A stretch of DNA of 8,980 bases from Nitrospinota bacterium (GTDB lineage Bacteria; Tectomicrobia; Entotheonellia; J063). Below are positions 22 to 8,980 of the stretch, one piece after another. The notes under the pieces were generated by a model that was not told the origin of the DNA, ran no database searches, and saw only the letters and a list, made by a program, of their open reading frames with translations. Positions within the stretch are counted from its first letter, which is position 1. Each line of letters begins with the position of its first letter. The position numbers and the translations under genes were made by a program. The stretch spans positions 1-8,980 of the forward strand of contig RFHZ01000473.1 of NCBI GenBank assembly GCA_003696125.1, in the 5' to 3' direction.

Positions 22-606
22 CTACGGGGGGTATCCCCTTATCTCATGACAACCCGGGCACCCGAGCCAGCGGACGAGGCGTCGCCCTTCACTCAGCACC
101 GGTGCTGCCCGGAAGTCTGGCCCGGAATGGCAGAGGCCACAGGAAGCCTCCAGGTACTGCTTAGGGAGTAGCGGCTCGTTCCAGTGTTTTGTCTGGCCGT
201 GTGCCGCCGCCGTGGTGATCGCCAATCCCTGTCCCCGGTGACAGATGGTGCAGCCGTACTTCTGCGGGGGATGAAACCGGAGCAGGGGTGGGGGATGGGT
301 GGTAAAGGGTTGGGGAGCCCCCTGCCAGCGCGGGTCATCGATCCCCAGATGGCAGGTGGTACAGCGATCGGTACGGCGCAGCGGTTCGATATAGAGTTGC
401 CGGATGGCGATTTTCTCTTGAGAGAAGGGGTATTGCGCCTGGACGGATCGCTCTTTCCCGGGGGAATCTGTCGCCTGCTGGAGACGCAGGGCAGAGAACG
501 CTCTCTGGATCTGTTTCCACTCCTGGTGGGTTTCCTGCCAGAAGAGGAGGAAGGTGCCGAGCATTACCAGGAAGCCAAAAATGGCGAAGAGGAGATGTTT
601 GCGCAT
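22..606 (-). CDS. Membrane-anchored tetraheme cytochrome c of the Rieske/b complex, apparently cut by an in-frame TAG
   Basis: The 194-residue reading frame starts with an uncleaved-looking N-terminal membrane anchor (about residues 5-23). Four CxxCH heme-binding motifs follow at residues 82-86, 119-123, 156-160 and 183-187. This resembles the multiheme c subunits that accompany Rieske/cytochrome b complexes in several anaerobic phyla; it would accept electrons from the Rieske centre on the outer face of the membrane. The ATG lies 3 bases after the stop of the subunit IV-like gene, so the two are surely cotranscribed. The frame stops at TAG (22-24) only seven residues after the last heme motif, too early for a complete cytochrome c domain, and the same frame continues with KIGPSLA. 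It is therefore either a truncated gene, a sequence error, or a read-through codon. Heme count and operon context are clear; the true C-terminus is not. Confidence 0.85.
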   Translation of the reverse strand: MRKHLLFAIFGFLVMLGTFLLFWQETHQEWKQIQRAFSALRLQQATDSPGKERSVQAQYPFSQEKIAIRQLYIEPLRRTDRCTTCHLGIDDPRWQGAPQPFTTHPPPLLRFHPPQKYGCTICHRGQGLAITTAAAHGQTKHWNEPLLPKQYLEASCGLCHSGPDFRAAPVLSEGRRLVRWLGCPGCHEIRGYPP

Positions 607-609
607 GCC

Positions 610-1422
610 TCAGATATTGATCCAGGGGGTTTGCACGATATATTTAAGCCCGAACAGCACGTGGAGGCCGATCTTGAGGAGCACCCCACCGAGCAGCAGG
701 AACAGGGAGACGATGACCAGATAGCGCATAAGGCCCAGGCGCCGGTACCCGTCCGGCCAGAGAAGGCGGGGGAGGAGGTAGCCGAGGGCCAGGTACCCCA
801 GGAGCAGGGGGAGTCCCACCGCAGGGGGGAGACTCCAGGCCGGATCGGTAAAGGGTTTTTCCACATCCCAGGACTCTCCAGGCCAGTATATCTGCCAGTT
901 GGGACCCCGCAGGAACGCCCCTACCAGGATCAGGCCGAACCAGAGGAGGAGGCCGACGGTGAAGGCGGTGGTGGCCAGGGGGCGTTGACGGAAGCTGTAC
1001 TCTCCTGCTCCGGCCCGGTTGACATCGACGTAGGGGAGCAGGAGCAGTCCCAGCAGGAAGAGGAGCGGGATCATGACCCCGCCCAGCCAGGGGTCGAAAT
1101 AGGTCAGGAGTTCCTGCAGCCCGACAAAGTACCAGGGAGCCTTGGCCGGATTCGGTGTCCAGGAAGGGTCGGCCTGCTCTTCCAGGGGGGCATCGATCCA
1201 GAGGGCTAAAAAGAGGAGGAGGGCGATGACCCCCAGGGCAGCGATCAGCTCGATATAGACGAGATGCGGGTAGGTGGGGATCTCTTCCTCATCAGGATCC
1301 CTGTTTCCCGGAGACAGGACCGCTTCCAGATCCCGCTCCTCCTGCCCATCTCGCTCCGGGGGGAGGGGGAAGGGTGCTTTTTTTCTGGTTTTGCTTTTAG
1401 AGCGGCCTTTTGATCGTGCCAT
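610..1422 (-). CDS. Cytochrome b C-terminal (subunit IV-like) protein of the quinol-cytochrome c reductase
   Basis: This 270-residue protein carries the C-terminal half of cytochrome b, which helps form the Qo quinol-oxidation site. A charged N-terminus (residues 1-50) precedes a membrane helix at about 55-76. The Qo motif region reads [12 protein letters not shown] (residues 94-105), so the Glu of the classical PEWY is replaced. Further hydrophobic segments lie near 113-132, 150-171, 198-220 and 231-258, giving about five, more than the three helices of plastid subunit IV. I chose the ATG at 1420-1422 (MARSKGR) because AGGAAAG sits just before it; a longer frame up to 1488 exists but would lie deep in the upstream gene. 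The gene overlaps the end of the cytochrome b6 gene by 26 bases, which suggests translational coupling. The family is sure; the exact start is probable. Confidence 0.88.
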
Positions 1423-2170
1423 CTTTCCTGATCCGCCAGAAATGAATCGCGATAAGGACGAGCATGAGGAAGGGGAGGACAAAGACATGCAAGACGTAGA
1501 AGCGGAGTAAGGCGCTGGCTCCTACGGTTCTGCCCCCCAGCAGATAGAAGCTCAGATCGCTCTGCGTATCCACCAGCCGAAAGGGACCGTCTGCCCCGAT
1601 GAAGGGGGCGGCTCGCGCCATGCTGGTCCCCACCGTTACCGCCCAGTAGGCCAGTTGATCCCAGGGGAGGAGGTACCCGGTAAAGCTCAGGAAGAGGGTC
1701 AGGACCAGCAGGCATACCCCCACCACCCAGTTGAATTCCCGCGGGGGTTTATAGGACCCGGTGTAGAAGACACGGGCCATGTGACCGATCACGGTAAGGA
1801 CCATGCCGTGGGCTGCCCAGCGGTGGAGGTTGCGCAGGAAACGGCCAAAGGCCACGCTAAACTCCAGGTCTTTCATGTCCTGATAGGCATGCTCCACGGT
1901 CGGACGGTAGTAGAACATGAGCAGGGCCCCGCTCACGATCAGGATACAGAAGAGGAGGAAGGAGGTACCACCCAGACACCAGGTGTACCAGACCCTGATC
2001 CGTTTCCGTTTGATATGGGGGGGATGGAGATGCAAGAAGAAATTGGTACGCGCCAGCCGCTTCCGCTCCCGGTCGGTACGCGGATAGGGATGGCGGAAGA
2101 GGGACCGCCACACCTGGATGGCTGGTTTCTGTACGGTCACTTTATCGAGGGGAGGGGCTTCCTTTTTCAC
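1397..2170 (-). CDS. petB: Cytochrome b6-type subunit (N-terminal cytochrome b) of a Rieske/cytochrome b complex
   Basis: The 257-residue protein is the diheme core of a bc/b6f-type quinol oxidase. Four axial His ligands are visible: H116 and H130 (13 residues between) and H228 and H243 (14 between, the b6-type spacing). The segment WCLGG at residues 64-68 matches the site where Cys35 of cytochrome b6 binds the extra heme ci/cn, so that heme is likely here too; FYYRPTV (87-92) and LPWDQ (168-172) are further b6 signatures. It ends after the fourth helix, so cytochrome b is split, as in b6f and Firmicutes-type complexes. I chose GTG at 2168-2170 because AAGGAG ends 8 bases upstream; a GTG at 2179 would overlap that ribosome binding site. 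It follows the Rieske gene by 39 bases and overlaps the next gene. Confidence 0.93.
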
Positions 2171-2209
2171 CGCTACCACTCCTTTCGCTCTTCTCCTCGC
2201 GCAGGGGGA

Positions 2210-2794
2210 TCAGGTCGAGATGACGTACCCTGGTGCGCTGCGTTTGGGTTCACGGTTGGCCTGCGAGGCAAGCCGGATTCCCAGACGACCGGTCCCCACG
2301 ATCAGCTCCCCTTCCGGGGTCAGGCGGATCGGGGTCCGGTACAGGGGTTCAGGAGCCGGTCCGGCCACCACATCCCCTTCCAGGGTGAAGACACTCCCGT
2401 GGCAGGGGCATTTAAAGACCTTTTCGGCAGGAGACCAGTTGGGGGTACAGCCGAGATGGGTGCAGGTGGCAACCAGGCTATAGAGCCCGGCATCGGTATG
2501 CACAATCCAGACCCGCTCCCCCTCTTTCCAGCGCTCACTCACCGTCCCCGGTGGGTATTGCTCAAGCCGTCCGGCACGAAAGAAGGCCGGGGGTTCGTAG
2601 AGGACGGCCGGGGAGAGGAACCGGCCGGAGACATAGAGCGTTCCCCCCAGGAGACCGGCCACCCCTCCCCAGCCGAGTGCCGCACAGAAGGTGCGGCGAT
2701 CGAGTTTTCCACAAGAGGGATGTTTCTCCTTTCCTTCCGCTGCAGGACAAACGGTAGCAGGGGGAGGGGAGGGCTTGGTTCGTTGCTCAGGCAT
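2210..2794 (-). CDS. Rieske iron-sulfur protein (ubiquinol/menaquinol-cytochrome c reductase type)
   Basis: This 194-residue protein carries the high-potential 2Fe-2S cluster that takes an electron from quinol at the Qo site. The two cluster motifs are CTHLGC (residues 111-116) and CPCHGS (129-134). Ligands would be C111, H113, C129 and H132, with C116 and C131 forming the stabilising disulfide. A twin-arginine-like N-terminus, DRRTF (residues 32-36), precedes one hydrophobic anchor (about 38-60), as expected for Tat-exported Rieske proteins. The start ATG at 2792-2794 has AAGGAG 7 bases upstream; an open frame runs further to 3157, but that part crosses a palindromic repeat and looks noncoding. 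It is the first gene of the minus-strand operon, and symbols qcrA, petA or petC are all used for such genes. Confidence 0.93.
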   Translation of the reverse strand: MPEQRTKPSPPPATVCPAAEGKEKHPSCGKLDRRTFCAALGWGGVAGLLGGTLYVSGRFLSPAVLYEPPAFFRAGRLEQYPPGTVSERWKEGERVWIVHTDAGLYSLVATCTHLGCTPNWSPAEKVFKCPCHGSVFTLEGDVVAGPAPEPLYRTPIRLTPEGELIVGTGRLGIRLASQANREPKRSAPGYVIST

Positions 2795-2871
2795 GGCCTT
2801 TCTCCTTTTATCATATCCGAAGCACTGGATTACTCCGGCCTTTTTCTCCTTTCCGTTATCAGGCTCTCTTA

Positions 2872-3394: not shown

Positions 3395-3418
3395 ATATCC
3401 TCAGAGGAGGGATATATG
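3395..3418 (+). promoter_or_regulatory. Strong ribosome binding site in a small hairpin loop, CYCXC gene
   Basis: AGGAGG at 3405-3410 lies 5 bases before the ATG at 3416 and fixes that start. ATATCC (3395-3400) can pair with GGATAT (3410-3415), leaving most of the Shine-Dalgarno in the loop. The stem is AT-rich and weak, so it may be of no consequence. Confidence 0.5.
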
Positions 3419-3943
3419 GGACGCAAAGGGAAACGTCGTCAAGGTCAGTCATCATCTTCACGTTCCCCGGCTGCGAAACGGGGGACGGTGCAGCAACCGC
3501 AGGACAAGGAAAGGCGTCAGATGCTCTTCTGGTCTGGTGCCGGGGCACTATTAGCCCTGGTAGGAGCCGGGGGCTACTTCTTTTCCAGCAGGTGGGGAAA
3601 AGGGGGGAGGGTCTTGAGTGCGGCGACCAAAGGGGCTCCGGTTGATTATGCCAGCTACCAGTTACGGGAACGGGGAAAGCTCCTCCCCCCTTCCCTTTTC
3701 CGGGGCAAGGTGGCGCGAGCCTATCAGGTGGCGCATGAGATTCCCAAGGTGCTGGACCAGCTCTACTGTTATTGTCGTTGCCGGGAGAATTTTGGTCATA
3801 AGAACCTGCTCAGTTGTTACACCAATACCCATGCCTCCACGTGAGGCATCTGTGTTGAGGAGGCGCTGTTAGCGTCTCGCATGCACCAGAAGGGGTACAC
3901 GGCGCAGGAGATCCAGCGGGAGATCGACCGGCAATTCGGCTGA
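3416..3943 (+). CDS. CYCXC (PCYCGC-type) family selenoprotein, Sec at residue 143 encoded by TGA 3842-3844
   Basis: Read through the TGA at 3842-3844, this is a 175-residue protein. It has a basic N-terminus (residues 1-35), one membrane helix (about 36-56), and an outer domain with CYCRC (C118, C120, C122), FGHKNLLSC (H128, C134) and HAST-U-GIC (U143, C146). It ends in GYTAQEIQREIDRQFG. From memory, the PCYCGC/CYCXC family carries HAxxCxIC at this point, and a (seleno)protein form is recognised. TGA therefore stands in for the first Cys of a CxxC, a typical Sec/Cys exchange. The 33 codons after it keep the frame and family features. A SECIS-like hairpin follows. The role is unknown; a redox or metal-binding job at the membrane near the respiratory complexes is inference. 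Without Sec insertion the product would be 142 residues and lack the C-terminal helix. Promoter context is unclear; the gene stands alone between divergent and downstream units. Confidence 0.85.
3845..3889 (+). promoter_or_regulatory. Bacterial SECIS-like element
   Basis: Just after the TGA, GAGGCGCT (3860-3867) pairs with AGCGTCTC (3871-3878) in 8 bp including one G-U pair, closing a GTT triloop whose first base is G (3868), 24 bases past the TGA. A lower stem CTGTGT (3850-3855) with GCAC(C)AG (3883-3889) can form below an internal loop. Bacterial SECIS elements are known to need a hairpin soon after UGA with a G at the start of a small apical loop; this fits. The folding was done by eye. 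Confidence 0.7.
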
Positions 3944-3958
3944 GAAAAGGTCGCTATA

Positions 3959-3997
3959 GGGGGACTCGCTGCCGGAGCAGCCTGAAAAGAGTCCCCC
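3959..3997. repeat. Hairpin downstream of the CYCXC selenoprotein gene
   Basis: GGGGGACTC (3959-3967) and GAGTCCCCC (3989-3997) form a perfect 9-bp stem. Inside, GCTGC (3968-3972) and GCAGC (3977-3981) form a second 5-bp stem around CGGA, with a 7-base bulge CTGAAAA. It lies 15 bases past the stop codon, so it could end transcription or stabilise the message. It lacks a T-run, so a standard intrinsic terminator is not shown. It could also be an end structure of the RAYT element. Confidence 0.5.
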
Positions 3998-4035
3998 TGA
4001 AAGGTATTCCCGACTGCCACGTCATAGATGATGTC

Positions 4036-4665
4036 ATGACCTCTTACTGCTATTTCTCCAGTACCCGGCATCGCCGGTCGATTCGGCTGTCCGGGTATGA
4101 TTACACCCAACCAGGAGCGTATTTTGTCACGATTTGCACCCAGAAACACCGTCATTTGTTTGGTGAGGTGGTGGATGGGAAGGTGCGGTTGAGCACGTCC
4201 GGCAGCATCGTACACGAAGAATGGTTCCGCACTGCCCGGTTGCGGCCGTCTGTGGTGTTGTATGCCGATGAATTTGTCGTTATGCCCAACCACATCCATG
4301 GCATCATATGGATTAGGGATCAGGTAGGGGCGCAGCGGCGCTGCGCCCCTACACCTCACCTGGTCCCTGGTTCGTTAGGGGTAATCGTCCGGGCGTTCAA
4401 ATCTGCTGTTACGCGACGCATCAACGTCCTACGCTATACCCGTGGTGTGTCCGTGTGGCAACGGAACTATTGGGAACATGTCATCCGTACCGAGCGTACC
4501 CTGGAGGTCGTGCGCCGTTACATCGTCGAAAATCCGCTGCGTTGGCATCTGGACCGATACAACGAAAACGCTACCGGCTCCGATCCCTTGGCCCGTGACC
4601 TCTGGCGTGTTATGCAAGAGGATGTGCATTGTGAAGGTAATCTGGCCAGCCCTTCACAAGAGTAA
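4036..4665 (+). CDS. REP-associated tyrosine transposase (RAYT, Y1/IS200-like HUH family)
   Basis: This 209-residue protein is a single-strand DNA transposase relative of IS200/IS605 TnpA. It opens with the RAYT-typical RHRRSIRLSGYDYTQPGAYFVTICT (residues 11-35). The HUH-type metal site is HIH (H86, H88) in VVMPNHIHGII, and SVWQRNYWEHVIR (139-151) precedes the likely catalytic Tyr162 in RYIVENPLRW. RAYTs are known to act on REP palindromes and are usually single copy and domesticated. Residues 97-106 are encoded by a REP-like palindrome lying in frame inside the gene, between the HUH and Tyr motifs, where the family is variable in length. The ATG at 4036 matches the usual family N-terminus, but no good ribosome binding site is visible. 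All key residues are present, so the enzyme may be active. Confidence 0.9.
   Translation: MTSYCYFSSTRHRRSIRLSGYDYTQPGAYFVTICTQKHRHLFGEVVDGKVRLSTSGSIVHEEWFRTARLRPSVVLYADEFVVMPNHIHGIIWIRDQVGAQRRCAPTPHLVPGSLGVIVRAFKSAVTRRINVLRYTRGVSVWQRNYWEHVIRTERTLEVVRRYIVENPLRWHLDRYNENATGSDPLARDLWRVMQEDVHCEGNLASPSQE
4324..4352. repeat. REP-like palindrome, copy 2, inside the RAYT gene
   Basis: GTAGGGGCGCAGC and GCTGCGCCCCTAC form perfect 13-base arms around GGC. It is the most perfect of the three copies. It is read in frame as VGAQRRCAPT of the transposase without breaking the gene. Confidence 0.85.
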
Positions 4666-4726: not shown

Positions 4727-4752
4727 TAAGGGCGCAGCGCACTGCGTCCCTA
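4727..4752. repeat. REP-like palindrome, copy 3 (degenerate)
   Basis: TAAGGGCGCAG pairs with CTGCGTCCCTA around CGCA, with one mismatch and one wobble. It shares the GGCGCAGCG core and CCCTAC end with the other copies and lies 61 bases after the RAYT stop, ahead of the octaheme cytochrome promoter. A perfect 10-base palindrome GGACATGTCC follows at 4754-4763. Confidence 0.7.
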
Positions 4753-4798
4753 CGGACATGTCCATGTTGCCATGCAGGCCACGAATCTGAATCTTCTC

Positions 4799-8828: not shown

Positions 8829-8980
8829 TATCTAAGTGAGTAATAAGTAACGAGTAACGAGTAATGAGTAACGAGTAAAGTAATGAGTGATGAGTAATGA
8901 GTAATGAGTGATGAGTAATGACTCATTACTTTACTCGTTACTCATTACTCGTTACTCGTTACTTATTACTCACTTAGATA
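8829..8980. repeat. Perfect 60-base inverted repeat at the window end
   Basis: Bases 8829-8888 are the exact reverse complement of 8921-8980, with a 32-base spacer. Outer ends read TATCTAAGTGAG and CTCACTTAGATA. At the inner edge of the right arm, AGTAATGA-C-TCATTACT is itself a 17-base palindrome. The repeat ends exactly at the window edge, so it could be longer, or mark a contig end. Confidence 0.95.
8837..8918. repeat. Heptad tandem repeat, consensus YGAGTRA
   Basis: The unit reads TGAGTAA, TAAGTAA, CGAGTAA, CGAGTAA, TGAGTAA and CGAGTAA from 8837. A 5-base partial unit AGTAA follows at 8879-8883. Then come TGAGTGA, TGAGTAA, TGAGTAA, TGAGTGA and TGAGTAA up to 8918. The same heptads recur in reverse complement in the right arm. 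Period 7 without spacers excludes CRISPR. Confidence 0.9.

Follow-up and report, generated by a model that had tools for sequence, protein, structure and literature searches.

The question raised by this locus is whether a TGA inside an open reading frame ends the gene or is read as selenocysteine and, in the latter case, what the product might do in the cell. Throughout, the window means the whole analysed stretch of 8,980 nucleotides, and its features are collected in Table 1. As the preliminary description stated, the frame from 3416 meets a TGA at 3842, which is codon 143, and the frame then stays open to 3941; the 33 further codons given there, however, include the stop, and 32 sense codons lie between the TGA at 3842-3844 and the second TGA. 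The residues around the recoded codon are THAST-U-GICVEEALLASRMHQKGYTAQEIQREIDRQFG, and the TGA takes the first position of a U-x-x-C pair (U143/C146), both members of which are invariant columns when the TGA is read as Cys. On the whole, sequence comparison leads us to conclude with great confidence that UGA 3842 is decoded as selenocysteine in a protein of the CYCXC family.

Table 1. Positions in the window of the CYCXC-family gene, its predicted elements and the neighbouring opposite-strand genes.
Feature	Position	Strand	Remarks
ORF of the predicted CYCXC-family selenoprotein	3416..3940	+	175 aa with U143; ATG 3416; stop TGA 3941-3943
In-frame TGA, predicted to be read as selenocysteine	3842..3844	+	Codon/residue 143 of U-G-I-C; The column holds a Cys codon in 29 homologues; TGA in 19 sequences, window included
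Predicted N-terminal membrane anchor	3521..3595	+	About residues 36-60, behind a Lys/Arg-rich start; AlphaFold2 helix 31-60; hydrophobic stretch in the sequence
Conserved Cys/His core	3767..3853	+	C118-Y-C120-R-C122, H128, C134, H139, U143-x-x-C146; invariant columns of alignment A1
SECIS-like hairpin	3860..3878	+	8-bp stem (one G-U); triloop of GUU, its G 23 nt past the UGA
Neighbouring set, strand opposite to the CYCXC gene	22..2795	-	Rieske, cytochrome b N and C parts, cytochrome c
Rieske protein	2210-2795	-	Named from its own CTHLGC/CPCHGS sequence
Cytochrome b N part	1397-2179	-	tblastn to L074
Cytochrome b C part	610-1488	-	tblastn to L074
Cytochrome c	22-606	-	tblastn to L074

The read-through product scores 128.3 bits against the NCBIfam model NF041379 'CYCXC family (seleno)protein', exceeding the curated cut-off of 90 bits, and 44.6 bits against PF13798 PCYCGC. 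The NF041379 match spans residues 88-174, the codons past the TGA do continue the family as had been proposed, and the C-Y-C-x-C motif and [C/U]-x-x-C are both present at conserved columns, with C118, C120, C122, C143(U) and C146 invariant. The earlier statement that this family has selenoprotein members is also correct, as seen in the name of NF041379 and in its listing with UxxC (PMC13188914). Two reviews tabulate the family as a predicted selenoprotein, hypothetical protein OS_HP4 with a UxxC motif (PMC9312934; PMC13188914); both cite a study on a symbiont of Olavius algarvensis, published in 2007, in which OS_HP4 was first reported. Since the family is already listed, the window gene is not novel as a kind, and is almost certainly a new member of a listed selenoprotein family. 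It shares with CYCXC/OS_HP4 proteins (NF041379; PF13798) the whole conserved domain, the C-x-C-x-C and, in the same place, the Sec of UxxC; no family-defining feature differs. The phylum of the window copy has seen little sampling (5 genomes in the collection used), and a bc-type complex and multiheme cytochromes are encoded close to the gene.

We then turn to the homologues. Of 395 genomes searched, all from the phylum to which a Desulfobacterales relative (G006) belongs, 44 have the family, in copies with one in-frame TGA or with none. The recoding site and its Cys equivalents are plain from the computational alignment: the column of the window TGA holds a Cys codon in 29 extracted proteins and TGA in 16, the window included, and with three more TGA sequences (L037, L024 and L062) there are 19 in total, from several lineages. 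A Cys thus aligns with residue 143, a point that the preliminary description had left to be checked, and the columns of alignment A1 that are invariant once the TGA is translated as Cys are Y103, A106, C118, C120, C122, H128, L131, C134, H139, C143, C146 and I166. The closest relatives, L002 (Candidatus Tectomicrobia) and L003 and L069 (Desulfobacterales), are 47-52% identical and all have the TGA; the last two are CYCXC selenoprotein genes on different contigs of one genome, G006. Neither frameshifts nor stops follow the TGA in close relatives, and in pairwise comparisons of the window with its relatives the post-TGA codons have dN of about 0.22-0.27, lower than dS (0.70-1.29). Were the TGA an ordinary stop, the product would have 142 aa and the next 32 codons would be a decaying remnant. 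Ordinary gene callers do end the gene at this TGA, as had been foreseen, but truncation would delete the UxxC, which is invariant, together with the helices that are conserved best, the segment after the TGA is open and under purifying selection, and the TGA form recurs in 18 other sequences, all of which makes an ordinary stop very improbable.

The selenocysteine reading also agrees with the selenium machinery detected computationally in the same genome. One tRNA-Sec is found with 74 bits, above the Rfam cut-off, and ARAGORN calls a tRNA-SeC (tca); selB matches with 386 bits and selA with 560 bits, with a second, partial selA match on another contig, and selD matches with 136 bits in a gene cut by the contig end. 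The tRNA and sel genes whose search had been advised are therefore present, selD in part. This partial selD has its own in-frame TGA in CAGUASK (the GUASK motif), a known Sec position of SelD, and hence indicates a second, independent use of Sec in the genome. That a TGC or TGT was turned into TGA by an error of sequencing or assembly in this fragmented genome (990 contigs) can be dismissed as wholly improbable, given the same TGA in many independent genomes and a genome with tRNA-Sec, selA, selB and a TGA-containing selD.

A bacterial SECIS element is a hairpin just downstream of the UGA, within a limited distance, having a G in the first two loop positions. The 8-bp hairpin with a G-first triloop described earlier is real: 3860-3867 pairs with 3871-3878 around the triloop GTT (3868-3870), starting 15 nt past the TGA, and it agrees with the bacterial rule, its distance limit included, in placement and early loop G. 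As proof by itself the hairpin was rejected, since 13 of the 222 TGA triplets in the window precede a stem of at least 8 bp with an early loop G at an allowed distance. Its RNA folding z-score is -2.05, with 7 of 200 shuffles equally good, and compared with synonymous recoding its energy is not significant for the window alone (z-score -1.28); neither the whole window nor 3700-4000 matched any Rfam family, hence no Rfam SECIS support. Across the family, the computed bias of such hairpins to TGA forms is clear: under the same rule, stems of at least 6 bp occur in 12 of 16 TGA homologues against 2 of 29 Cys homologues, these being related sequences and not independent. The hairpin codons GAG GCG CTG TTA GCG TCT are identical in the window, L003 and L069, whereas other same-residue codons often differ, and the Fisher p for the lack of synonymous change in these six codons is 0.008 and 0.024 (the two relatives being from one genome). 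For L002 alone this test is not significant (p 0.53); its hairpin is nearly unchanged, both stem arms being kept save the loop-closing pair. A separate TGA group has a different hairpin, CAGGAGG-AGGC-CCUCCUG, in which L053 shows a double change that turns one G-C pair into A-U. Overall, three things exceed chance: homology that stays in alignment past the TGA, the exact equivalence of Cys and TGA in one column, and the enrichment of hairpins in TGA over Cys forms.

It is of interest to discuss what such a protein may do. AlphaFold2 gives a confident helical domain at about residues 81-175 (block pLDDT 90-98), preceded by an N-terminal helix 31-60, and places Sec143 directly ahead of helix 144-158. 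Foldseek returned no match below E 0.001, and a PDB sequence search with the family profile gave nothing convincing. The top structural match overall is a designed zinc protein, and among natural proteins in the PDB the CcmH structures from E. coli and P. aeruginosa come out best, with Z 4.6 and 4.4, scores that common helical arrangements also reach. In direct profile comparison only, hhalign of the family against 10 CcmH sequences gives 79.6% (full) and 88.1% (trimmed, P 3e-6), compared with at most 1.1% for 40 column-shuffled decoys and 3.0% for a reversed profile; the window protein does not reach PF03918 (CcmH), PF13798 being the sole domain found at an E value of 0.01 or lower. Like CcmH, the thiol oxidoreductase of cytochrome c maturation, the window protein has a Cys cluster and, after it, a helix-turn-helix whose end reads G-x-x-x-x-E-I-x(7-8)-[FY]-G, and its small helical fold may be similar (Z 4.4-4.6). 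Unlike CcmH, it has the predicted anchor before the domain and not after it, carries an extra conserved C-x-C-x-C/His core, and has Sec in place of Cys. We found no paper linking CcmH with PCYCGC or CYCXC in the literature searched, which takes in a minority of the subscription journals. In one genome (G064; L070 132-1562, G064:C29) a single 542-aa frame joins a weak CcmH-like Cys-rich stretch (23 bits), a DUF1573-like part recognised by eye and a CYCXC part (84.6 bits). Besides these, three CcmH-family proteins (L080, L083 and L084) have CQCGC or CLCGC for the usual CxxC, and look intermediate between CcmH and CYCXC.

The gene neighbourhoods show both cytochrome-related and other partners. 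Downstream of the CYCXC gene the window has two multiheme cytochromes. The tblastn matches are at L074, where cytochrome b and c genes adjoin a CYCXC selenoprotein and Rieske and cytochrome b Pfam domains occur; in the Tectomicrobia locus a single strand carries the CYCXC selenoprotein together with the Rieske protein, cytochrome b in two parts and cytochromes c. Around many Cys members the gene order is RnfB-CYCXC-TPR-ResB. ResB serves in cytochrome c maturation, the TPR protein at L033 fits the CcmH/CycH TPR model, and ccmH adjoins L069. Other members have other neighbours: DUF1573 is the next gene at L045, TlpA-like genes occur at some, one TGA group has PALP and trypsin-like genes next to it, and for some Cys members the adjoining genes are NadA/NrtR, in neither case cytochrome genes. 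The window's own genome gave no ResB match.

A few further observations concern the window itself. The TGA-joined minus-strand frame 22-1488 was considered as a second read-through and rejected, as it consists of two adjacent in-frame genes, the cytochrome b C part and cytochrome c, which are separate ORFs in L074. Close to the contig edge, and next to a run of C, the cytochrome c ORF ends after GCHEIRGYPP, and a 45% identical relative in L002 runs on to 681 aa; perhaps the window copy has a frameshift. A Y1/IS200-like transposase ORF (4036-4665; PF01797, below cut-off) lies among GC-rich palindromes GTAGGGGCGCAGCG..CGCTGCGCCCCTAC (2877-2902, 4324-4352 and 4729-4755), which together look like a REP-associated transposase with its repeats. 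At 8830-8980, short GAGTAATGAGTAA-type repeats are followed by their reverse complement, forming a long inverted repeat at the contig end that may be an assembly artefact.

Taking function alone, and leaving the Sec decoding as it stands, there is a nearly even chance that the selenoprotein belongs to general redox proteins that handle metal or peroxide, and is not specially linked to cytochrome c. The neighbours vary by lineage (PALP/trypsin-like, NadA/NrtR, DUF1573, TlpA-like), the cluster of C-x-C-x-C, His and Cys might be a metal site, and a designed zinc protein leads the structural matches; on the other side stand the profile relation to CcmH, the ResB and ccmH neighbours, and the ORF joining CcmH-like and CYCXC parts. 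A role of the family in cytochrome c maturation is suggested by profile and fold likeness to CcmH, the RnfB-CYCXC-TPR-ResB clusters, the ccmH gene by L069 and the joint ORF of G064. Because the CcmH Z scores lie in the common helical range, some members have PALP/trypsin-like or NadA/NrtR neighbours, and the window's genome is without ResB, we hold this role to be a serious candidate, somewhere between tentative and evenly balanced. The fuller proposal, that CYCXC/PCYCGC is a distant CcmH-like branch acting in cytochrome c maturation, with Sec for one CxxC Cys in several lineages, is put forward as rather doubtful.

In the proposed mechanism, SelB and tRNA-Sec would decode UGA 3842 as selenocysteine, directed by the hairpin, to give a membrane-anchored and probably periplasm-facing selenoprotein of the CYCXC (OS_HP4, PCYCGC) family. 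Sec143 and Cys146 would form a U-x-x-C redox pair at a helix start, beside the conserved C-x-C-x-C/His/Cys cluster. Distantly akin to CcmH, the protein might then be a thiol (selenol) oxidoreductase which may keep the heme-binding thiols of apocytochrome c, or partners doing so, reduced during cytochrome c maturation. With the window gene, a selenoprotein family already in the catalogues reaches a bacterial phylum of which few genomes have been sampled, and a gene caller that stops at the TGA loses the redox motif of such genes. Should the CcmH link hold, a family of no assigned function would acquire a role that can be tested, and selenium would be tied to cytochrome c assembly; CYCXC selenoproteins would then be a selenium-dependent cytochrome c maturation factor.
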